A DNA stretch of 45,830 nucleotides from an uncultured Pseudomonadota bacterium (GTDB lineage: Bacteria; Pseudomonadota; Gammaproteobacteria; Burkholderiales; Eutrophovitaceae), in assembly GCA_913057675.1 (NCBI GenBank), contig CAJXOL010000004.1:1-45830 (forward strand), given 5' to 3'. The translations under genes and the position numbers were made by a program. The notes under the pieces were generated by a model. That model saw only the letters and a list, made by a program, of their open reading frames with translations, made no database searches and had not been told where the DNA came from. Position 1 is the stretch's first letter. Every line of letters starts with the position of its first letter. Positions 3,835-22,515 of the stretch are shown here, piece after piece.

Positions 3835-4104
3835 CTACTGTCCCTCGCCAAATAAATCTAAGACTAGATTTTTGATGGCGACAATGGCTTTATCCTCATC
3901 TGAACCATTGACCTCTAAGTCCAACAATGCTCCTTTTGCCGCTGCTAACATCATGACGCCCATGATGCTTTTTGCGTTGACACGTTTCCCATCGCGGCTA
4001 AGCCAAATTTCTGATTGATACTCCCCTGCCAGCTGCGTCAGCTTTGCTGACGCTCTAGCATGTAGTCCTAGCCGATTAAGAATCTCTATTTTTTCTTTTA
4101 GCAT
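3835..4104 (-). CDS. ptsH: Phosphocarrier protein HPr
   Basis: 89 aa; GLHARASAKL phospho-His site and VNAKSIMGVMMLAA Ser-46-type motif. Confidence 0.95.
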   Translation of the reverse strand: MLKEKIEILNRLGLHARASAKLTQLAGEYQSEIWLSRDGKRVNAKSIMGVMMLAAAKGALLDLEVNGSDEDKAIVAIKNLVLDLFGEGQ

Positions 4105-4505
4105 AAGGGCCTCTTTTGTTTCAACGGTATCTGCATAACTCCCTCGTTGCCGCCAGAGAGAGCTTTCTCAACGAGGGTTTTTAAATCTTCTTCACGGTAG
4201 GTCAATACGCGAATTAACATCGGTAGGTTTACGCCTGAGATGCCGCAAACATTATTTATTTGCAGTAGCGTCTGGGTGATGTTGCTTGGGCTCCCGCCGT
4301 ACATGTCCGTGAGGACTAGAACTCCAGTGCCGTCGTCTAGCTTTGAGGTTGCTTCTATAGCCCTTTGCGACATGCTCTCAATCGAGCCGCCCCCATCCAT
4401 GCCAATCACAGCTACATTTTTTAATGCGCCTCCTATCACGTGTTCGGCGCAATCAATGAGACTACGGCCAAGAGATCCATGTGTGATTAATATAATGCCA
4501 ACCAT
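4098..4505 (-). CDS. PTS sugar transporter subunit IIA, EIIA-Man family
   Basis: MVGIILITHGSLGRSLIDCAEHVIG...VLVLTDMYGGSPSNI; typical EIIA-Man. ORF track extends to 4538, but ATG 4505 is the likely start. Confidence 0.92.
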   Translation of the reverse strand: MVGIILITHGSLGRSLIDCAEHVIGGALKNVAVIGMDGGGSIESMSQRAIEATSKLDDGTGVLVLTDMYGGSPSNITQTLLQINNVCGISGVNLPMLIRVLTYREEDLKTLVEKALSGGNEGVMQIPLKQKRPLC

Positions 4506-4518
4506 GCTGTTTATCTTT

Positions 4519-5472
4519 CTATCTGACTTTTGCCGCAATATTTTTTTCTAATGCGTCGATGAACATTCCTGGGACATCGCAACCGGTTTGATCTTGTATT
4601 TCACGCATACACGTCGGGCTGGTGACATTGATCTCGGTGAGATAGCCGCCAATAATATCTAATCCAACTAGCAATAACCCTTGCTCTGTTAATGTCGGAC
4701 CCAACGTATCTGCTATTTCTCTTTCTCGGTCCGTGAGTGGCATGGCCACACCACGCCCACCTACAGCGAGATTCCCGCGATGATCTGCTCCTTGGGGAAT
4801 CCGTGCCAGAGTATACGGTGCGGGCTCCCCATCGATGAGTAAGACTCTTTTATCTCCATCGCTGATATCAGGAATAAATTTTTGTACCATAATTGTCCGT
4901 TGACCCAACTGGGTGAGTGTTTCGATAATTACCCCTAAGTTTGGATCTTGAGATCTCGAACGAAACACAGATGATCCTCCCATCCCATCGAGGGGTTTCA
5001 ATACGACTTCGTTTTGTTCCGCAATAAAATCGTTTATCACGGAGACATCCGCAGCCACCAACGTGGGTGATATGAATTGTGGATATTTTGTAATTGAGAG
5101 TTTTTCGTTGAAGTCTCTGATACTTTGTGGGCGATTAAATACCAGGCATCCCTCTTGCTCAAGGCTCTCAAGCAAATAAGTAGTGTAAATGTACTCCATA
5201 TCGAATGGCGGATCCTTCCGCATCACGACGCCATCAATATTAGAGGCCGATATATCTTGTGATGTAACGACTTCATACCAAGTGTTAGGCGTTTCGGTAA
5301 GGATTAAGTGCTGCGCTCGGACAATCACTTTTCCAGATACGTTCTGAATATTGTGTTGCGTTGTCACCCAAATTTGGTGTCCACGACTTTGCGCCTCTCG
5401 CATCATCACGTAGGAGGTATCTTTCTCAATTTTGAGGGTCTCTAATGGATCAAGTACAAAAAGTAAGTTCAC
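4519..5472 (-). CDS. gshB: Glutathione synthetase
   Basis: FVLDPLETLKIEKDTSYVMMREAQSRGH, VMRKDPPFDMEYIYTTYLLE, VLKPLDGMGGSSVFR, EINVTSPTCMREI. Confidence 0.96.
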   Translation of the reverse strand: MNLLFVLDPLETLKIEKDTSYVMMREAQSRGHQIWVTTQHNIQNVSGKVIVRAQHLILTETPNTWYEVVTSQDISASNIDGVVMRKDPPFDMEYIYTTYLLESLEQEGCLVFNRPQSIRDFNEKLSITKYPQFISPTLVAADVSVINDFIAEQNEVVLKPLDGMGGSSVFRSRSQDPNLGVIIETLTQLGQRTIMVQKFIPDISDGDKRVLLIDGEPAPYTLARIPQGADHRGNLAVGGRGVAMPLTDREREIADTLGPTLTEQGLLLVGLDIIGGYLTEINVTSPTCMREIQDQTGCDVPGMFIDALEKNIAAKVR

Positions 5473-10557: not shown

Positions 10558-11901
10558 GTGGCTGTAGCGGGTTCGCCACTAGTAGGCGCACCGCTTTTTC
10601 CCACTTTGATGCGTTTGGCGGTGCCGGGGGTTATCGGCTCGCTGTTGCATATGTTGCTCATCGTATTAGAGATTTTCTTGCTAAACCGAGCGGGAATTAC
10701 AGCACTTGCCGCCATCGCCACAGTTTTTCCTTTGATTATGTTGGCGCACATGCTCTCGGCAGGTGCTATTGGTGGTGCAATCAGTGGTGCGGTGGCGCGC
10801 GCGTTGGGGGCAAACGATTTAATTAGGGCGCAAGCGATCTTGCGCAGCGCTATTTTTATCGCGCTATTTGGTGGCGCGGTGATGGCGGTGTTCGTTACGA
10901 TTTTTGGTTCAACATTTTTTTATTGGGTGGGGGCTCGTGATGACGTTCTGATAGCAGCTAATGAGTACGCACAAATTATTTTTTTTGGCGTACCGCTTTT
11001 GTGGCTATTCAATATGTTGTGCTCGGTATTGCGTGGTGCTGGAGCCATGACTCGGGCAGCACTAGCGATGGCTTCGATCGTAATTGTATATTCGATATTA
11101 GGTTTTTGGTTGATGCCAAGCCAGGAATCACTCGTAAATGTAAGCGATACGATGCGCGCTGCTGCTTATATTCTATTAGTGGCGTACGCGGCGGGTGTTG
11201 TGACGGTTTTAGCCTTGATTGTATGGTCTGATCAGCCGGTTCGTTTGAGTGGATATGGATTTGATGGGTCTACCGTGTTGGCGCTGTTGCGCTCAGGTTT
11301 GCTTGCGGGTACGCAATCGACAGCAACTATCATTTACGCACTCATTGCTACAGGACTACTCGGTAGGTTCGGCGTTGACTGGCTTGCCGGTTATGGCTTG
11401 GCTGTGCGTTTGGAGTTGGTGATGGTGCCTGTGGTTTTCGGTATCGGTGGCGCGTTGATAGCGATCGTGGGTGCTTACGCAGGAGCGGGAGAAAGAGCGC
11501 GAGCAATTGAAGTTGCATGGCGTGGAACGCTCGCTAATATTGTAATCGTTGGTGCGGTTGGTTTTATTCTTGGTTTAAACGCTGATTGGTGGTGTGATGG
11601 CCTTGGTAGTGGCCAGGAAGTAGTAGCACATTGCAGTATTACGTTGCAGATTTTAGGGCCTTTTTATGGCTTTTTCGCAGCGGGTCTTGGCCTTTATTTT
11701 GCTAGTCAAGGACTGAACACCTTAGCGTGGCCTGTTTTGGGCTCTTTATTGCGGACACTAATCGTTGCCAGCGGATTATTATTGTTGAAGTTTGACTGGT
11801 TTGGGACGCCCGAGGATATTTTATGGTTGGTTGCTTGTGCAATGGTGGTGTACGGGGTATTTGTTGTTGCAGGTTTAAGATTCCGAGCTTGGCGTACGTG
11901 A
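10558..11901 (+). CDS. MATE family efflux transporter
   Basis: 447 aa polytopic; PTLMRLAVPGVIGSLLHMLLIVLEIFLLNRAG..., GAIGGAISGAVARALGANDLIRAQAILRSA, VVFGIGGALIAIVGAYAGAGERARAIEVAWRGT; GTG start. Confidence 0.88.
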   Translation: MAVAGSPLVGAPLFPTLMRLAVPGVIGSLLHMLLIVLEIFLLNRAGITALAAIATVFPLIMLAHMLSAGAIGGAISGAVARALGANDLIRAQAILRSAIFIALFGGAVMAVFVTIFGSTFFYWVGARDDVLIAANEYAQIIFFGVPLLWLFNMLCSVLRGAGAMTRAALAMASIVIVYSILGFWLMPSQESLVNVSDTMRAAAYILLVAYAAGVVTVLALIVWSDQPVRLSGYGFDGSTVLALLRSGLLAGTQSTATIIYALIATGLLGRFGVDWLAGYGLAVRLELVMVPVVFGIGGALIAIVGAYAGAGERARAIEVAWRGTLANIVIVGAVGFILGLNADWWCDGLGSGQEVVAHCSITLQILGPFYGFFAAGLGLYFASQGLNTLAWPVLGSLLRTLIVASGLLLLKFDWFGTPEDILWLVACAMVVYGVFVVAGLRFRAWRT

Positions 11902-11982
11902 TAGAATTTTGAGTTCTATTATTTCTTTTCGACGTAAAGTTTTACTGATTCAGTAGGCTATACAAAATTTTATAGGACAATT

Positions 11983-13128
11983 ATGACCGCTTCAATTCCG
12001 GCTAAAGCGCTGCAATTACATTCTTTAATCCGTGCTGAAGGTGAGCTCGAAATATCGTTAGTTGATGTCGAGATTCCTGAGCCTGCCGCGGATGAGGTGC
12101 TGGTGCGTATTGAGGCCACACCCATTAACCCTTCCGACTTAGGCTTACTTTTTGGCGCTGCTGACCTTTCTACAGCCACTGTCTCTGGAACTAATGAATA
12201 TCCTGTGGTGAGTGCGAGGGTGCCCGAGAAAGCTATGAAGGCGATGGCTGGACGATTGGGCCAATCGATGCCTGTCGGTAATGAGGGTGCGGGAGTGGTC
12301 GTTAAAGCCGGCAGTTCAGCGGCGGCTCAACACCTGTTAGGTAAAAAAGTTGCGATGCTTGGTGGTGCGATGTATGCCCAATATCGATGTATCAACGTTG
12401 AACGATGCTTAAAACTGCCGGACGATGTGACGCCGGCAGAGGGTGCGAGTTGCTTTGTAAACCCAATGACCGTCCTTGGCATGGTTGAAACGATGCGTGG
12501 TGACGGACACAGTGCGTTAATACACGCCGCTGCCGCATCTAATTTGGGTTTAATGCTCAACCGCATTTGTATTAAGGACGAGATCCCGTTAGTTAATATT
12601 GTGCGAAAGCAAGAGCAGGTCGACTTACTCAAAGCTGAGGGCGCTAAATTTGTTTGTAATACTGAATCTCCTAATTTTTTAGCTGAGTTGACGGATGCCA
12701 TTGCGGCGACCAAAGCGACGGTCGCATTCGACCCTATTGGGGGGGGTAGATTGTCAGGGCAAATTTTAACTTGTATGGAAGCGGCTTTGAATCGAGATCC
12801 AAAGGAATATAGTCGCTATGGATCAACGACTCACAAGCAGGTATACATCTACGGCACCATGGATACTTCCAAAACAGAAATAGTTCGTAATTTCGGGTTT
12901 TCGTGGGGCATGGGAGGCTGGCTACTTTTTAACTTTTTAGCGAAGATTGGCTCAGCCGCAGAAGAGAAGTTGCGCCAACGTATTGCGAATGAATTAAAGA
13001 CTACATTTGCTAGTAACTACTCACACGAAGTCTCTTTAGCTGGTGCGCTTCAGTTGGATGCGATTAACGCTTATGTCAAAAAGTCTACTGGGACAAAATA
13101 TTTAATGAATCCGAATAAAGACATGTGA
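11983..13128 (+). CDS. Zinc-binding/MDR superfamily dehydrogenase (quinone oxidoreductase-like)
   Basis: ADEVLVRIEATPINPSDLGLLFGAADL, MPVGNEGAGVVVKAGSSA, GKKVAMLGGAMYAQY, AHuman-independent Rossmann-like region ALIHAAAASNLGLMLNRICIKDEIPLVNIVRKQEQVDLLKAEGAKFV. Confidence 0.87.
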   Translation: MTASIPAKALQLHSLIRAEGELEISLVDVEIPEPAADEVLVRIEATPINPSDLGLLFGAADLSTATVSGTNEYPVVSARVPEKAMKAMAGRLGQSMPVGNEGAGVVVKAGSSAAAQHLLGKKVAMLGGAMYAQYRCINVERCLKLPDDVTPAEGASCFVNPMTVLGMVETMRGDGHSALIHAAAASNLGLMLNRICIKDEIPLVNIVRKQEQVDLLKAEGAKFVCNTESPNFLAELTDAIAATKATVAFDPIGGGRLSGQILTCMEAALNRDPKEYSRYGSTTHKQVYIYGTMDTSKTEIVRNFGFSWGMGGWLLFNFLAKIGSAAEEKLRQRIANELKTTFASNYSHEVSLAGALQLDAINAYVKKSTGTKYLMNPNKDM

Positions 13129-13183
13129 TTCTGATGTGTGGATTGTGCACTATTGGTTGAATTAATTTAGGGTGGTGATTTGT

Positions 13184-13990
13184 ATGGATCTGTATGGATC
13201 TGCGTATTTTTATCGTATCTGCCGACCTCGTCAATTTGAAAGGCTACCATTGCAGCTCGGTTTTGCGGAATTGAAATTGACGTAGTCAAAGCTCATCATA
13301 GAGATTTGTCGCGATGGTTGTGAAATTTTGAGGCACATCTGATCACTGAATAGGAGCGTGAAGATCTTGCTCCGTTTTCACGACAGCCTCTTTTAGGTTT
13401 TGGCGGCGATGTCCTTCACAAAACTGACGGTTTTTTTTGATGCAAATTCATTTGGAACCATCCCGACAGCATTTAACCCAGACGGTTGTGGAGGAATATT
13501 TGAGTCAAACAGCATTATGCGATCTGTTGCAAGGCTTGGTTCGATTACGTGCTCACTGTATAGAGACGATGCGTACTCCGCATCTCGTATTGATAGCTTT
13601 CTTGATGCGACTCTGGTGTTTGCTTGCGACTCAAAGCTTTATTTGTTGTCCCTTTTGGAGGGCACTTTCACGAGTAATTTACATGAGACTGCGAAGCAGG
13701 CGTTATGCACCTATTTGAGCAGGCTTAATCGCGCGTTGTCACCTGATCGATCCTGTTTGGTGGGCGATACTTTTAGTATTGTCGATATATGCGTAATTGC
13801 CGAGCTCGCATTATTTTTTCGCGAGCGTGATTATGAGAAAATCCTCAGTGAGTTCCATCTTAGTCCCACCGCTGACGCTGAAATTAATGAATATTATCCG
13901 CTTATCGCTGATCATTTTCATAAGTTATGTGAGCATGAAGCATTTGTGCCAGACGTTCTTTCCCATATGGAGAAATTATTGTTAGGCTAA
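13184..13990 (+). pseudogene. Decayed glutathione S-transferase family gene (eEF1Bgamma-like GST)
   Basis: ORF 13400..13990 carries GST-like GGIFESNSIMRSVARLG...SRIDSFLD...CLVGDTFSIVDICVIAELALFF. Upstream N-terminal GST pieces MDLYGSAYFYRIC (from ATG 13184) and KATIAARFCGIEIDVVKAHHRDLSRWL (13240-13320) are in disrupted frames with stops. Confidence 0.6.
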
Positions 13991-14132: not shown

Positions 14133-15572
14133 GTGCTTATTGCGACATTAAAAAAATCACATGGCGTTAAAGCTTTTTTAATTTGGCTTGGGTTAATTTG
14201 CGCCGTTGATGCGCAAGCTGACTACCGTTATCGAGTTTCTACAGGCTCTGATTTGAAAAAATTGACCGTCGAACTTTGTTTTGAAGGTCAGGCGCCAGAA
14301 AAGTTAGTTGCTGAGTCTCTAGACGCATCCGTTGCCTTGATCGGCGCTTGGCATGAGTCTGGTGAGCGGATAAATTTATCTGGATTTATTCCCACTGGTA
14401 GCGTTCCTGTAGGGGCTTGTATTCACTATCAAGTGGATATCTCTAGGGGAGTGCAGCGGCATGACATGACGGGACCTAAGGTCTACAGATCGATAGGTGC
14501 AACTGCTGTATCCAATGGCCTTTGGTTTTGGCGTCCTGAGGTTATTCCAAAAAGCCGTCGAGTCTTCGTAGAGTTTAAATTGCCTGCTGACTATTCTCTT
14601 TCAACTTCCTGGAACCTAACCGAAACTGATGGCGTGTTAGAGGTTCCTGCAACGCCCTTTGATTGGCCGTCTTGGATTGTGCTAGGTCGCTTTTTTAAAA
14701 AAGAAGTGATCGCCAATGGGACTCAATTCGATATCTCTATCCTAGACGGCTCACCTACGCCTGATGCTGAGGCATTGGCTAGTTGGATCGATAAGGAAGT
14801 GGCACATGTGCAATCCGCAATCGGAGAAATTCCATTTTCAAATGTTCAGGTGTTCATATTCCCTAATGCTAGGGCAAGGCAGCCGGTACCGATTGCTTAT
14901 GTTACCCGGGGAGGAAATCCAACTCTGCATTTAATGATTAATCAGCGGAGAAAAATGCAAGAGTTCTTAGATGATTGGACTGTCACTCATGAGTTATCGC
15001 ATTTATTCCTCCCGTTTATTTCGCCGGATGATGCTTGGCTTTATGAAGGGCTCGCGAGTTATTACCAATATGTGGTTCGTTCTCGTGAAGGATTGCTAAG
15101 TTCAGAGAAGGCTTGGTCGAATCTTATTTATGGCTTCCACAGAGGGACTCGCGAAGCGGAGGCAAGGGGTCTGACTTTACTCGAGGCGACTCAAAAGATG
15201 TATCAAGGAGAACCTTTCATGCAGGTTTATTGGGGAGGGGCGGCGATGATGTTGATTGCGGATGTTCAGTTGCGAAAGAGATCAAATGGAGCGTGGTCAC
15301 TTGATCGTGTGATACGGGAATTTAATTTATGTTGTATGGATAGAACACGAGCCTGGACGGCGCTCGAGGTACTTTCAAGTTTTGACGAATTGTGCGGTTA
15401 CTCCTTATTCGTTCCACTTATGGATCGTTATGCGAATACTAATGAATTCCCAGATCTAGCTAATACGTTCCAGTTGCTTGGTATGGTTGTAGAGCAAGCT
15501 GACGTGACGTTATTGGATGATGCCGACCAGCAATCTCTTCGAAATAAAATTATGCTTAGACCGAGCCTGTAA
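14133..15572 (+). CDS. Secreted/periplasmic gluzincin-type metallopeptidase, M61/MA-clan-like (paralogue 1)
   Basis: N-terminal hydrophobic segment; VTHELSHLFLPFISPDDAWLYEGLASYYQYVVRSREGLL (HEXXH-x14-E), VYWGGAAMMLIADVQLRKRSNGAWSLDRVI; GTG start. Confidence 0.75.
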   Translation: MLIATLKKSHGVKAFLIWLGLICAVDAQADYRYRVSTGSDLKKLTVELCFEGQAPEKLVAESLDASVALIGAWHESGERINLSGFIPTGSVPVGACIHYQVDISRGVQRHDMTGPKVYRSIGATAVSNGLWFWRPEVIPKSRRVFVEFKLPADYSLSTSWNLTETDGVLEVPATPFDWPSWIVLGRFFKKEVIANGTQFDISILDGSPTPDAEALASWIDKEVAHVQSAIGEIPFSNVQVFIFPNARARQPVPIAYVTRGGNPTLHLMINQRRKMQEFLDDWTVTHELSHLFLPFISPDDAWLYEGLASYYQYVVRSREGLLSSEKAWSNLIYGFHRGTREAEARGLTLLEATQKMYQGEPFMQVYWGGAAMMLIADVQLRKRSNGAWSLDRVIREFNLCCMDRTRAWTALEVLSSFDELCGYSLFVPLMDRYANTNEFPDLANTFQLLGMVVEQADVTLLDDADQQSLRNKIMLRPSL

Positions 15573-15705
15573 GAATTATTTGATTAACTTGCAGCGAACC
15601 GCCTGTGTGATTGATTTCTCTTAGACTTTCTGAAAAAGGTTTACGTATCAATATGCTAACTTAGGTTTTATAACCACTTGAAATCGAAAGTAGTAATTTC
15701 AAAAA

Positions 15706-17121
15706 ATGAGAAAAATATTTTATTTGGCGCTTTTTTTTTCGTTAATTTCGTTTGCAAAAGGTGAAGTACCGCCTCTAACGTATCAAGTAACTGTTGAGAA
15801 TGACCTCCGATCATTCGCGGTGTCAGCTTGTTTTAGCGGGAATCTCCCTGCGTTTCTATACGCAAATGACGCTTTCGGATCATTTGTGAGAAATGTGAGG
15901 CTTGATACTGGCGATATGCTGGAGTTGGACGTTGACTCAGTTGCTATTCCGCAAGACAACGCTGCGCGATGCATTTTTTACGATGTGTTTCTCCAACCAA
16001 GGAATCAAGGCGAGCAGCGCGGCGGCGCCGAAACGAGGTTAATAGAGGATCGAAATATGCTCACCTCAATTGGTGATTGGTTGGTGAGGCCTAAGCCGGA
16101 CGCTTTCTACGAGTCATTCGAGATTGGTTTTAGCGTCCCTGAGGACATTTTTGTTTCAACACCTTGGCGTCGAACTGGGAAGACGAGTTTCATTGGTGCG
16201 AATACCCCAATTTCGTGGGAAGGTATCGTGGCGCTGACAAATCGAGAACCCAATGTGATTGATGTTGCAGGGAGTATGTTTGAAGTCAGTATTTTGGGGG
16301 ACTTTGGGCGTACAAATCAAGAAGACTTGGTTCGCTGGGTTACGCGATCAGCGCAGGGCGTCTCTGGACTCATGGGGTTTTTCCCTAGTCCCCATGTGCA
16401 AGTGGTCGTTAGCCCTAGTGATAGAGGTAATGCTGTTGTTCCCTGGGCATATGTGACGCGTGGTGGTGGTGCGGGCATTCACTTGTTCGTTAATCGGGAT
16501 GCCAGCGTAGAGCAGCTCTTATGGGATTGGAGTCTTCCTCATGAGATGTCACATTTTTTGTTCCCACATATTAATACCAGTGATTATTGGGTTATCGAGG
16601 GATTACCAACTTACTTACAGCATCTTTCGATGGTTGAAAGTGGCGCTATAAGCGCGACGGAGTCATGGTCGAGGTTGTACCGAGGTTTTGTTGTAGGTGC
16701 TAAAGCGGGGCGAGGATTAACGGTGGCAGAGTCCGTAGGTCGCCTTTCCAAGAGGGGGACCTACCGACATATTTACTGGGGTGGGGCGGCATACTTTTTT
16801 GGTATCGATGTGGAGTTGAGACGTAAGTCTCAAGGAACGTTGACTTTGCTGGATGTGCTGATCAAATATTATGGATGCTGTTATGATGCAAAACGAAGTA
16901 TTCCTGGTGATCAATTGTTAGCTGATCTAGATTCGCTGTTAAATGATGATTTGTTTATTCGCCGAAAAAATAAAGAAATCATAGCTGAACAATTTCCTAA
17001 TTATATGGCTACATTTAAAGCGCTTGGCATTCAATTTTTGGGAAGTAACCCTGTATTTGATGAGGATGAGCAAAGTGGTATATCCAGTCAAATTATGAAG
17101 CATTCAGGGTCCCGTCATTAA
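15706..17121 (+). CDS. Secreted/periplasmic gluzincin-type metallopeptidase, M61/MA-clan-like (paralogue 2)
   Basis: Signal peptide MRKIFYLALFFSLISFAKG; LPHEMSHFLFPHINTSDYWVIEGLPTYLQHLSMVESGAI (HEXXH-x14-E), IYWGGAAYFFGIDVELRRKSQGTLTLLDVL; clear paralogue of the preceding CDS. Confidence 0.75.
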   Translation: MRKIFYLALFFSLISFAKGEVPPLTYQVTVENDLRSFAVSACFSGNLPAFLYANDAFGSFVRNVRLDTGDMLELDVDSVAIPQDNAARCIFYDVFLQPRNQGEQRGGAETRLIEDRNMLTSIGDWLVRPKPDAFYESFEIGFSVPEDIFVSTPWRRTGKTSFIGANTPISWEGIVALTNREPNVIDVAGSMFEVSILGDFGRTNQEDLVRWVTRSAQGVSGLMGFFPSPHVQVVVSPSDRGNAVVPWAYVTRGGGAGIHLFVNRDASVEQLLWDWSLPHEMSHFLFPHINTSDYWVIEGLPTYLQHLSMVESGAISATESWSRLYRGFVVGAKAGRGLTVAESVGRLSKRGTYRHIYWGGAAYFFGIDVELRRKSQGTLTLLDVLIKYYGCCYDAKRSIPGDQLLADLDSLLNDDLFIRRKNKEIIAEQFPNYMATFKALGIQFLGSNPVFDEDEQSGISSQIMKHSGSRH

Positions 17122-17146: not shown

Positions 17147-18559
17147 ATGAGTAAAGCAGATGTTTGTTTTCTTCCCGCCCACACTATGCTTGACTTGGTG
17201 CGTCAGCGGAAGATTTCCGCCACAGAGTTGCTAGATTGCCATTTGGACCAAATAGAAAATGTTAATTCGAAAATTAATGCCATTGTCACGTTAGACGAGG
17301 AGAGAGCAAGAGTTACTGCCAAGAATATCGATCAGCGGATCATGACTCAGGCTCCACTGGGGTTATTGGAAGGACTACCTGTTGCGCATAAAGATCTAAC
17401 TGTAACGAAGGGCATCAGGACGACTTTTGGGTCCCCGCTTTACGAGGACTTTATCCCCGACCAGGACGCTTTGATTGTTGAGCGGTTTCGCCACTCGGGT
17501 GCCGTTACTTTAGGGAAAACCAATACACCAGAGTTCGGTGCTGGAAGTCAAACTTTTAATAAGGTTTTTGGCGCTACTCGAAATCCATATGACTTAGATA
17601 AAACTTGCGGCGGTTCGAGTGGTGGGGCTGCTGCTGCACTTGCGTCTGGTCTCGTGCCCATTGCCGATGGATCGGACCTAGGGGGATCGCTAAGAAATCC
17701 GGCGAGTTTTTGTAATGTAGTTGGTCTTAGGCCGTCGACAGGTCTTATTCCAACCTGGCCAAACCCTTCAGCTTGGTTTCCGCTCTCCGTACTTGGCCCA
17801 ATGGCTAGGACGGTTAAAGATGTTTCACTGATGCTGTCTGCGATCGCTGGTCCAGATCCGCGTTGTCCACTGTCGATCGCACAGAGCCCGGACATTTTTC
17901 GACAAGATTTGGGCAGAGATTTTAGTGGTGTAAGAGTTGCCTGGAGCAGAACTCTGGGTGACTTGCCTGTAGACGATGAGGTACTTAAAGTCATTGAAAC
18001 AGCTGTTCATCGACTCGAAGACACAGGGTGCATTATTGAGGAGGTTGACCCAAATTTAACTGAAGCTGATGAGGTCTTCCACGTGTTAAGAGCGTGGCAT
18101 ATGGAGTCGGCACTTGGTGAGCTTTTAGCAGCGCACCCAGATCAGTTTAAAGATACTCTGATATGGAATATTGAGCAGGGAAGAACGCTTACAGGGCCTG
18201 ACGTAGCTCGAGCGGAGCGGCTAAGGAGCACGATGTTTGAGAGACTTAATCGATTTATGAATACATATGAGTTTATAATTTGTCCTGTAACGCAGGTCTT
18301 ACCATTTGATGTCGATCTCCCCTACGTCAGTAAAATTAATGGGAGCACCCTATCAAACTACCTTGATTGGATGAAATCCTGTTTTCGCGTCAGTGCCACT
18401 GGCCATCCCGCACTTTCGGTACCCGCTGGATTTTCGTCATCTGGATTGCCGGTTGGGCTTCAGATAGTTGGCCGTTTTAGAGATGATTTTGGTGTGCTGC
18501 AATTCGGGCATGCTTTTGAGCAGTTAAGTGAATTTTGGAAAGTTCGACCCAAAATTTAA
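17147..18559 (+). CDS. Amidase (amidase signature family)
   Basis: Ser-cisSer-Lys signature: LPVAHKDLTVTKG, TCGGSSGGAAAALASGLVPIADGSDLGGSLRNPASFCNVVGLRPSTGLIP. Confidence 0.95.
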   Translation: MSKADVCFLPAHTMLDLVRQRKISATELLDCHLDQIENVNSKINAIVTLDEERARVTAKNIDQRIMTQAPLGLLEGLPVAHKDLTVTKGIRTTFGSPLYEDFIPDQDALIVERFRHSGAVTLGKTNTPEFGAGSQTFNKVFGATRNPYDLDKTCGGSSGGAAAALASGLVPIADGSDLGGSLRNPASFCNVVGLRPSTGLIPTWPNPSAWFPLSVLGPMARTVKDVSLMLSAIAGPDPRCPLSIAQSPDIFRQDLGRDFSGVRVAWSRTLGDLPVDDEVLKVIETAVHRLEDTGCIIEEVDPNLTEADEVFHVLRAWHMESALGELLAAHPDQFKDTLIWNIEQGRTLTGPDVARAERLRSTMFERLNRFMNTYEFIICPVTQVLPFDVDLPYVSKINGSTLSNYLDWMKSCFRVSATGHPALSVPAGFSSSGLPVGLQIVGRFRDDFGVLQFGHAFEQLSEFWKVRPKI

Positions 18560-18582
18560 GACTATATTTGGAGGTGTAACTC

Positions 18583-19377
18583 GTGATTTTCAATTCCCTA
18601 TATCGTAATTCGCAGCTGATAAAGATATTGCTTACAGGCGCCTTGATGGCATCTATTTCTAATTCAAGCGCTAATGACCGAGTTTTCATTGATGATCTTC
18701 AAGGAATTTGGTTTGAGAAAACCTATCTTGAAGCGTTAAGGCAGACCAAGCAGCCGCATGAGGCAGAAAAACAATCTAAACCGGTATTGATTGCAATAAA
18801 AAAAGAAGGGCGTGCTTACCCCTATTTTGCGACAGATATGGTTAAGGCAACGCTGATGATTGTATTTGATGTGGAACCTAGCCAAGAGCCAAATACATAT
18901 CGATTGGTGCTGGGTGAAAGAAATGCGCCGACCTCTGCGGAAGATGTTGTTTACGTGTGGTTTAAAGGTGAAAAATCTCTAGATGGCCAATTTCGAAATC
19001 TTCAGATTCAAGAACCTCTTGTGATGGCTGGTAAGTGGGCCTCATACGAGCGCGTGGGGAAAGAGCTCGGTCCTATTATCAATAACATCGTTTTGAGTGG
19101 TCAGTATCTTGATGAGGCTGGAAAAAAATGGACGTTTACGGACGGCGGTAAGGCATCTTTTCCTGATAAGACTCCCTTTTATTACGAGATTTCTTTGGTA
19201 GCAGATGGTGCCACCTGTGATTATATTGAGGTTGAAGATTTGAAATCTGCTACAGGTTTGGCTTACTACGGCTTTAACTGGAACCAGTCCGGAGTAATGG
19301 AGCTTTATGAGGCTAATTTAGAAAGTGGAAACATTCAATGTCAGTCCAAGCCTTTTGTGGTGTTAACACCTATGTAG
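18583..19377 (+). CDS. Hypothetical exported protein
   Basis: 264 aa ORF; N-terminal hydrophobic segment ILLTGALMASISNSSAND resembling a signal peptide; no family recognised. Confidence 0.75.
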   Translation: MIFNSLYRNSQLIKILLTGALMASISNSSANDRVFIDDLQGIWFEKTYLEALRQTKQPHEAEKQSKPVLIAIKKEGRAYPYFATDMVKATLMIVFDVEPSQEPNTYRLVLGERNAPTSAEDVVYVWFKGEKSLDGQFRNLQIQEPLVMAGKWASYERVGKELGPIINNIVLSGQYLDEAGKKWTFTDGGKASFPDKTPFYYEISLVADGATCDYIEVEDLKSATGLAYYGFNWNQSGVMELYEANLESGNIQCQSKPFVVLTPM

Positions 19378-19430
19378 TGTTTTTTTTGGAAATTTTTTTA
19401 TTAATTCTTGAAGATCATTGAAGGTGCCTT

Positions 19431-20879
19431 ATGAGTGACGTCGAAAAAAAACATACTCAAAGTAGCATCGACACAGTCCGGCGATCTTTGGAAGATATCA
19501 AGGCAACGCTCGGAAAATATCAGCATATAGATGGCTTTTTAGGTGATCAGGTCGCATCTCGCCGAGATCTAGGTGATGAGTTTATTCAAGAAAAAAACCT
19601 AATCGGGCTGCAGGATAAGCTGGATGCGATGCATCCAGCGGATATTGCTGCCATCTTAGAGCAAATGCCTCTGGATGAGCGTTTGCTGGTGTGGAAGCTC
19701 GTCCGATCTAACCTAGATGGAGACGTGTTGCTTGAAGCGTCAGATGCTGTTAGACAAACGTTAATAGCGGATATGGATGTTCAAGAGCTCTTGGCGGCGA
19801 CGGAGCAGTTGGATGCTGATGAAATTGCAGATCTTGCTCCAGATCTACCTGAGGGAGTCATTGCTGACGTATTTCGATCTTTGTCAGAAACCGAACGATT
19901 ACAACTTAAAGCAGCCTTATCGTACCCTGAGGATACTGTCGGTGCATTAATGGATTTTGAAATGGTGACTGTTCGAGAGGATGTGTCGCTCGACGTGGTG
20001 CTGAGATATTTGCGTCGATTGGAAAAGCTGCCACCTAATACAGACAAGCTTTTTGTCGTTGATCGTCGTGAAATTTTAAAAGGTGCTTTATCCATTAGTG
20101 ACTTAATTGTTACTTCGCCTGAAACTAAAGTGTGTGATGTGATGTCCACTGCTGTTGTTAACTTCAACCCAGACCAGGAAGCAGAGAGTGCCGCACACGC
20201 TTTTGAACGCTACGACTTAGTATCAGCCCCTGTTGTTGACGCACACAATCGCATTGTGGGTCGGATGACGATCACTGATATTGTGGATTATATCCGGGAG
20301 GATGCTGAGCAAGAATCGTTAGGGAAAGTGGGGCTTCGGGATGAGGATTTGTTCTCCTCTGTTTGGAAGAGCGCTAAAAACAGGTGGCTTTGGCTAGCTG
20401 TGAATTTAGGGACGGCTTTCTTTGCGTCTCGAGTCATTGGTTTATTTGAGGACTCGATAGAACAGTTGGTTGCTCTGGCTGCGCTCATGCCTATTGTTGC
20501 CGCTATAGCTGGCAACTCAGGGAATCAGACGGTTACGTTGATTGTTAGAGCATTAGCCTTTGAAGAAATCAATAAAAATAATGCGAAAGGCCTCCTTCGC
20601 AAAGAACTTGCCATCGCACTTGTGAATGGTGTTTTGTGGGGTTCAGTCGCTGGTTTTTTTGCGTGGCTTCTTTACGGAAATATCGCTCTTGGCTTGGTCA
20701 TGTTGAGCGCGATGCTGCTTAATTTAATAGTCGGGGCTGCGGTGGGTATGCTAGTCCCATTATTTTTACAAAAGATGGGAAGAGATCCAGCTATTGGATC
20801 CTCAGTTTTATTAACGTTTAGTACTGATAGTATGGGATTTTTAATATTTCTTGGAATGGCGACTTTATTCTTAGTCTAA
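19431..20879 (+). CDS. mgtE: Magnesium transporter MgtE
   Basis: N-domain LHPADIAAILEQMPLDERLLVWKL-type repeat, CBS pair (VCDVMSTAVVNFNPDQ..., VVDAHNRIVGRMTITDIVDYI), TM region ALMPIVAAIAGNSGNQTVTLIVRALA...GRDPAIGSSVLLTFSTDSMGF. Confidence 0.96.
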   Translation: MSDVEKKHTQSSIDTVRRSLEDIKATLGKYQHIDGFLGDQVASRRDLGDEFIQEKNLIGLQDKLDAMHPADIAAILEQMPLDERLLVWKLVRSNLDGDVLLEASDAVRQTLIADMDVQELLAATEQLDADEIADLAPDLPEGVIADVFRSLSETERLQLKAALSYPEDTVGALMDFEMVTVREDVSLDVVLRYLRRLEKLPPNTDKLFVVDRREILKGALSISDLIVTSPETKVCDVMSTAVVNFNPDQEAESAAHAFERYDLVSAPVVDAHNRIVGRMTITDIVDYIREDAEQESLGKVGLRDEDLFSSVWKSAKNRWLWLAVNLGTAFFASRVIGLFEDSIEQLVALAALMPIVAAIAGNSGNQTVTLIVRALAFEEINKNNAKGLLRKELAIALVNGVLWGSVAGFFAWLLYGNIALGLVMLSAMLLNLIVGAAVGMLVPLFLQKMGRDPAIGSSVLLTFSTDSMGFLIFLGMATLFLV

Positions 20880-20935
20880 ATACTTATGAAATTTGTTGAT
20901 ATACCCATGTTCCTTATACGAGTTATTATTTATTT

Positions 20936-21886
20936 ATGAAAAACGCCTTTAGATCAGACATATCTCCTTCAGAAATCACATCAAGAACATTATTTGAGTC
21001 TAGACGGCGATGGATGCAAGGAAGCCTCGCCTCTTTAGCGACGATGGCCATCGCTCCGGCAAGTGCTAAGTCGCGCGATGGAAAAGATTTTCCTGTTGCA
21101 TTCGAGTCCGAAAAAAGTGAATTTTCGACTGCTGAGAAGCTAACAACCTATTCGGATGTGACTCGATATAACAATTTTTACGAGTTTGGCACAGGAAAAG
21201 AAGATCCAGTTGAACAGGCCCATAGATTGAAGACCGATGGGTGGACAATAAATATCATAGGTGAAGTTCATCGACCACAAAGGTTCGATATCGATCAACT
21301 CTTGCGGCTTGCGCCACTTGAGGAGCGAATTTATCGACTGCGGTGTGTCGAGGCCTGGTCCATGGTGATTCCATGGATCGGTTTCCCGCTGTCAAAATTA
21401 CTGGACTTGGTTCAGCCTACTGGAAATGCGCGTTATGTGGAGTTTATTTCTTTGTACGACCCAGAGCAAATGCCGGGTCAAAGGAGTGCCGTGCTTGACT
21501 GGCCATATAAGGAGGGGTTGCGATTGGATGAGGCCATGAATCCACTGACACTTTTGACGTTAGGTTTATATGGTGAAATTTTGCCTAATCAAAATGGAGC
21601 ACCTGTGAGGTTGGTGGTGCCGTGGAAGTATGGTTTTAAAAGTGCGAAATCAATCGTGACAATTAAATTGACCGAAAAGCAACCGGCTACCGCCTGGAAT
21701 GTTTCCAATCCTAGTGAGTATGGGTTTTATTCCAATGTAAACCCACAGGTCTCACATCCAAGGTGGAGTCAGCGGAAGGAGCGACGTATTGGAGAGTTTC
21801 TAAAACGAGATACGGAAATGTTCAACGGCTATTCCGAATGGGTTGCAGATTTGTATCGTGATTTAGATTTAAGCAAGCACTTCTGA
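20936..21886 (+). CDS. msrP: Protein-methionine-sulfoxide reductase catalytic subunit MsrP (YedY)
   Basis: Tat-like [81 protein letters not shown]. Confidence 0.96.
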
Positions 21887-21900
21887 CGCACGTCTCTTTT

Positions 21901-22515
21901 ATGCGCGATACTCCGCGACCGCAACGTTTAAGAGTGGGTATAGACACTCGAATTATTTGGTTAGTCAGTTTAATTCCGCTGATCACGCTGTGTGGGCGAG
22001 GCATGATGGGCGAACTAACAGCCAATCCAATTGAATATATTTCTAAATTTACTGGTTGGTGGACACTTTTTTCTCTTTTGCTGACCTTGGGTGTAACGCC
22101 TGCTAGATATTTTTTTAGCATGCCGATACTGTTTCCTCTAAGAAGAACATTTGGGCTTATTACTTTTGTTTACGCAACAATCCATTTTTTAACTTGGTTG
22201 GTTTTGGATCAATTCTTTGACTGGACGGAAATTGCATTAGATCTATCTGAGCGCCCATTTATTTATATTGGCTTCGTCGCTTTTCTTGGGCTTTGTATAT
22301 TAGCTCTGACATCAACCAATCGTGCAAAAGTGGTTCTCGGATCTGTGCGTTGGAGGCGGATGCACAAGAGTGTTTACCTCATTGCAATTTTAGGCGTGAC
22401 GCACTTTTATATTTTAGTTAAAAGTGACGTGTGGGAACCGTTAACGTTTGGAGCAGTGCTCTTTTTGTTGTTGGGATATCGACTGTTTCTCCGATTGTTG
22501 AACAATAGACGTTAA
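21901..22515 (+). CDS. msrQ: Protein-methionine-sulfoxide reductase heme-binding subunit MsrQ (YedZ)
   Basis: TGWWTLFSLLLTLGVTPARY, RRTFGLITFVYATIHFLTWLVLDQ, VRWRRMHKSVYLIAILGVTHFYILVKSD; directly follows msrP. Confidence 0.95.
   Translation: MRDTPRPQRLRVGIDTRIIWLVSLIPLITLCGRGMMGELTANPIEYISKFTGWWTLFSLLLTLGVTPARYFFSMPILFPLRRTFGLITFVYATIHFLTWLVLDQFFDWTEIALDLSERPFIYIGFVAFLGLCILALTSTNRAKVVLGSVRWRRMHKSVYLIAILGVTHFYILVKSDVWEPLTFGAVLFLLLGYRLFLRLLNNRR

Follow-up and report, generated by a model that had tools for sequence, protein, structure and literature searches.

Tandem genes for two diverged, putatively periplasmic M61-like zinc peptidases in an uncultured member of the Burkholderiales

The window analysed here is a stretch of 45,830 nucleotides, contig C4 of a 2.13-Mb assembly from an uncultured bacterium of the family Eutrophovitaceae (Burkholderiales). 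It encodes, head to tail on the plus strand, two paralogous proteins, A (14133–15572; 479 aa, with a GTG start codon and GGAG before it) and B (15706–17121; 471 aa, ATG start), which are likely to be active, diverged single-zinc peptidases of the gluzincin type that reside in the periplasm and belong to an M61-like branch with altered specificity. Both products are predicted to be exported to the periplasm and to combine an M61/M1-like N-terminal β domain with a thermolysin-like catalytic domain. In the proposed mechanism, zinc would be bound by the two histidines of HExxH and by a glutamate 15 residues further on, water would be activated by the HExxH glutamate, and the transition state would be stabilised by the tyrosine of a YWGGAA segment. 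As the glutamate of the GGLEH (M61) or GxMEN (M1) motif is missing, the grip by which M61 and M1 aminopeptidases hold the substrate N-terminus would have been lost.

The two proteins share 29% identity over 448 aa (E = 2e-59), which is far above chance. A sequence-only reading of this DNA had described in both of them an export-type signal segment, a β-rich N-terminal region, an HE[L/M]SH-x14-E site, YWGGAA, a cysteine pair in the N domain and a vicinal CC near the C-terminus, and all of these were recovered. Judged by eye, each N-terminus consists of a short basic stretch followed by a hydrophobic run of the signal-peptide kind, and the β-rich region is seen in the predicted structures of both proteins. 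The layout of A comprises a signal-like segment (residues ~1–29), the N-terminal β domain (~30–205) and the catalytic domain (~206–474), and the chain ends about five residues past the last conserved residues, I473–M474. The putative zinc site of A, HELSH...E, lies at 14988–15047 on the plus strand (residues 286–290 and 305, spacing x14, H286 to E305), with E287 as the candidate general base; that of B, HEMSH...E, lies at 16540–16599 on the same strand (residues 279–283 and 298, H279 to E298, likewise x14). The YWGGAA segment of A (residues 366–371; 15228–15245, plus strand) places Y366 at the position of the catalytic tyrosine of M1 and M61 enzymes (YxKG), whose role has been described (PMC2241622), and YWGGAA of B places Y357 there. 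The N-domain cysteine pair is C49/C96 in A and C42/C89 in B, and the vicinal cysteines, also on the plus strand, are C400–C401 in A (15330–15335) and C391–C392 in B (16876–16881).

Relatives of A and B were drawn from scans that took in 120 relatives and genomes at three taxonomic ranks: 369 from the class, 399 from the order and 399 from the phylum. The HExxH-x14-E spacing is the same in all 81 of the 82 aligned relatives that cover the site, and H286, E287, H290, E305, G306, Y310, D281, P294, W302 and Y366 are invariant in 58 near-full-length homologues, in line with the earlier claim of retained catalytic residues. Among close relatives, dN/dS is 0.14 for A and 0.18–0.20 for B, compared with 0.08 for the amidase gene that follows, so that both genes are under purifying selection. 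The dN/dS values and this conservation rule out a pseudogene or a chance open reading frame.

Scanned against Pfam, A and B match the M61 model PF05299 at 18.4 and 16.1 bits, below its gathering cut-off of 22 bits, and give neither an M1 nor a PDZ match. Some of their relatives just pass that cut-off (22.0–24.3 bits), and 31 of 40 aligned family members match M61 at E values up to 0.1. While a phmmer search of the PDB with A alone returned nothing useful, so that a family profile was needed, the profile placed M61 structures first (4fgm, 4.6e-7; 7xyo, 3.4e-6; 8j9c, 1.3e-4). Profile–profile comparison of the A/B family with genuine M61s of relatives gave E = 1.7e-15 and matched YWGGAA to YYSKGS. 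AlphaFold models, built on alignments of the window and locus proteins, had a pLDDT of 91.6 for A and 89.4 for B and a pTM of 0.89 for each. Foldseek searches of the PDB with both models returned the same three M61 structures on top, followed by M1 enzymes; the M61 alignments spanned 430–520 columns (TMq 0.54–0.69, E about 1e-18 to 1e-20, best 6e-20) and covered nearly the whole chain of A and B, including the N-terminal β domain. The models thus give both proteins the two-domain M61/M1 fold, whereas a lack of the catalytic fold would have counted against the earlier reading, and the Foldseek and PDB profile matches, the sub-threshold Pfam scores and the x14 spacing together bear out the earlier remark that the proteins recall M61 in a compactly spaced form.

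The suggestion that the system may be undescribed stands in part. Neither Pfam nor NCBIfam lists the A/B family under a name of its own, no NCBIfam model for it was found, and a search of open-access papers yielded none on this branch; on the other side, the proteins are close to M61. Because some members just pass the Pfam M61 cut-off, A and B represent an uncharacterised M61-like side branch of a known fold, neither an unrelated family nor a wholly new one.

The cysteines are also highly conserved. Among the 58 near-full-length homologues, C96 and C400 are present in all, C49 in 57 (the remaining sequence is truncated) and C401 in 57; the one A copy with Cys-Gly for Cys-Cys (L166, 6218–7708) is the sole exception. 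C49 and C96 are present or absent together with the N-terminal domain. In three relatives that lack this domain (L151, L155, L177), CC provides the only mature cysteines, and CC is therefore independent of N-domain partners; these relatives make disulfides between an N-domain cysteine and CC unlikely. Another homologue, L158, has an extra N-terminal region and no CC. The simplest pattern, C49–C96 plus a vicinal C400–C401 pair, fits these sequences best, with the N-domain cysteines probably forming a structural disulfide and CC probably a vicinal disulfide or a redox-sensitive pair. Retention of a vicinal CC even as the only mature cysteine pair is unusual for a peptidase.

Maximum-likelihood analysis of 66 proteins groups the B sequences of this family with those of a second family of the order in a single clade (99/100), from which the A copies of either family are excluded. 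This topology points to one duplication that took place before the two families diverged, in support of the ancient tandem duplication proposed from the sequence, and it rules out independent recent duplications in each genus. Since that event, both copies would have been retained as diverged, non-redundant enzymes. A survey of co-occurrence found the pair held together in 14 sampled genomes from the two families, with the copies adjacent in all except G008, where the locus is broken by the assembly, and 14 of the 16 sampled genomes with B also have A. It found genomes with one copy as well: an A-type gene occurs alone in many genomes, the single-contig genome G011 has B alone, and all that the incomplete genome G005 shows is a fragment of B at the edge of a contig. 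The existence of A-only genomes and of G011 indicates that A and B are separable, and this evidence does not suffice for the proposed two-enzyme envelope system. The other family and one genus of this family have a gene for a DUF2214 membrane protein between A and B (L051, 9504–9962; also L050, L055, L165 and L166), which at times overlaps their ends. A search of a plasmid collection gave no match, and plasmid-borne spread was rejected accordingly.

Downstream of B, a run of plus-strand genes that is conserved with A/B within the order (17147–22515) encodes an amidase (17147–18559), a secreted 264-aa protein with no Pfam match (18583–19377), MgtE (19431–20879), an MsrP-like protein (PF00174; 20936–21886) and, closing the run, an MsrQ-like protein (PF01794; 21901–22515). 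The intergenic gaps from B onward are 14–56 bp in the window, and the order A (B)–amidase–264-aa protein–MgtE–MsrP-like–MsrQ-like recurs within the taxonomic order, which suggests co-transcription; a scan for consensus promoters and terminators found no more sites than in shuffled sequences. The exported 264-aa protein recurs at this position in 22 loci from the order (cluster 2) and represents an uncharacterised conserved family. In relatives outside this genus, MetH is encoded upstream of A, and in this genus it is absent from that place; in the window, the corresponding segment (10558–13990) has MATE, alcohol-dehydrogenase-like and GST genes. One family of the order has a lone CbiM-type membrane gene (PF01891) between MetH and A (L054, 8914–9633; also L056, L167 and L175). 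Outside the order, the A/B gene arrangement was not seen in the loci examined, where the neighbours differ. With gene order conserved only within the order, the neighbourhood was judged not decisive for function.

Besides A and B, this genome codes for a genuine M61 protein with GGLEH (L005, 919–2739; 606 aa), and the motif is present, some 35–41 residues before HExxH, in all 12 M61s examined (this protein and eleven from relatives). In A, its place, and that of GxMEN, would be taken by RGG (residues 259–261; 14907–14915, plus strand), as judged from the order of the segments and from the location of RGG ahead of the edge strand and HExxH, the profile alignment with M61 spanning only the part after HExxH. 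No acid is conserved at this segment across the A/B family alignment. In M1 and M61 aminopeptidases, the glutamate of GxMEN or GGLEH binds the substrate amino terminus. Without this residue, a classical aminopeptidase is a less likely assignment, and as far as the sequences can tell, A and B are more likely to be endopeptidases, or to have some other end preference, than to be glycyl aminopeptidases. The lack of GxMEN alone does not settle specificity, because some M1 relatives have an altered GxMEN with parts missing (PMC2241622). Such relatives lend something to the alternative that A and B are aminopeptidases in which another acid, for example the invariant D281, or a main-chain group grips the substrate N-terminus. 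The top structural neighbours of both proteins are annotated as aminopeptidases, and D281, five residues before HExxH, is present not only in the 58 near-full-length homologues but also in 22 of the 24 that are shorter or partial. However, D281 is on the zinc-helix side and not on the edge strand, and the constancy of GGLEH in genuine M61s stands against the lack of any conserved acid there in the A/B family, so we regard this alternative as rather unlikely.

B might instead have lost its activity, or have come to bind or regulate A in a heterodimer of enzyme and pseudoenzyme. The longer stem branch of B in this genus (1.91 changes per site vs 1.18 for A), its somewhat higher dN/dS and the presence of A in most sampled genomes with B are what such a partnership would lead one to expect, but B retains HExxH, E298, Y357 and all other core residues and occurs by itself in G011, which leaves the proposal with a low probability. 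Still less probable is a role of A and B, together with MsrPQ and MetH, in an operon for the maintenance of methionine and methionine sulfoxide that acts on damaged periplasmic proteins. Although four families share the gene order from MetH (outside this genus) through A (B) to MsrQ, that order is limited to one taxonomic order, MetH is not upstream in this genus, and common neighbours may reflect plain synteny. We would give equally little weight to a separate M61-like peptidase family of the proteobacterial envelope in which the conserved vicinal disulfide would turn proteolysis on or off with redox state and the paralogues would split substrates beside the periplasmic MsrPQ repair system. 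The reading of A and B as two active, diverged peptidases of an M61-like branch would make them members of a proteobacterial group of the M61/M1 fold that retains the catalytic machinery and is missing the feature that defines aminopeptidases, and hence a test case for what determines exo- versus endopeptidase specificity in enzymes of this fold.

The short catalytic-only cousins of A and B (~300–370 aa; for example L036, L064, L155 and L160) share HExxH-x14-E, YWGG and D281 with them but lack the N-terminal β domain, and the CC pair is missing in most and retained in few. Homologues without the N domain that have CC (L151, L154, L155, L177) are intermediate between the long family and these cousins; one short cousin (L062, ~4080–4940; G009:C5) has an in-frame TAG, which probably marks either a disrupted gene or an error in the sequence. 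With M1 enzymes, such as LTA4 hydrolase, aminopeptidase N and the two-domain Deinococcus enzyme (6a8z/6ifg), A and B have in common the two-domain core, the zinc triad and the catalytic tyrosine; M1 enzymes differ in having HExxH-x18-E and GxMEN, in contrast to x14, no GxMEN and no Pfam M1 match in A and B. The likeness to M61 (PF05299, glycyl aminopeptidase; 4fgm, 7xyo, 8j9c) extends to the β N-domain and thermolysin-like catalytic domain, the HExxH...E zinc site with its catalytic tyrosine, and the segments W..EG..(S/T)Y, Y..(K/G)G and LR......SL. Unlike M61, in which the second histidine and the glutamate are ~29 residues apart (read from the sequences of the 12 proteins above) and GGLEH precedes the zinc site, the A/B family has x14 spacing and no GGLEH, its chain stops soon past the catalytic domain without a C-terminal PDZ domain, and it has four conserved cysteines.
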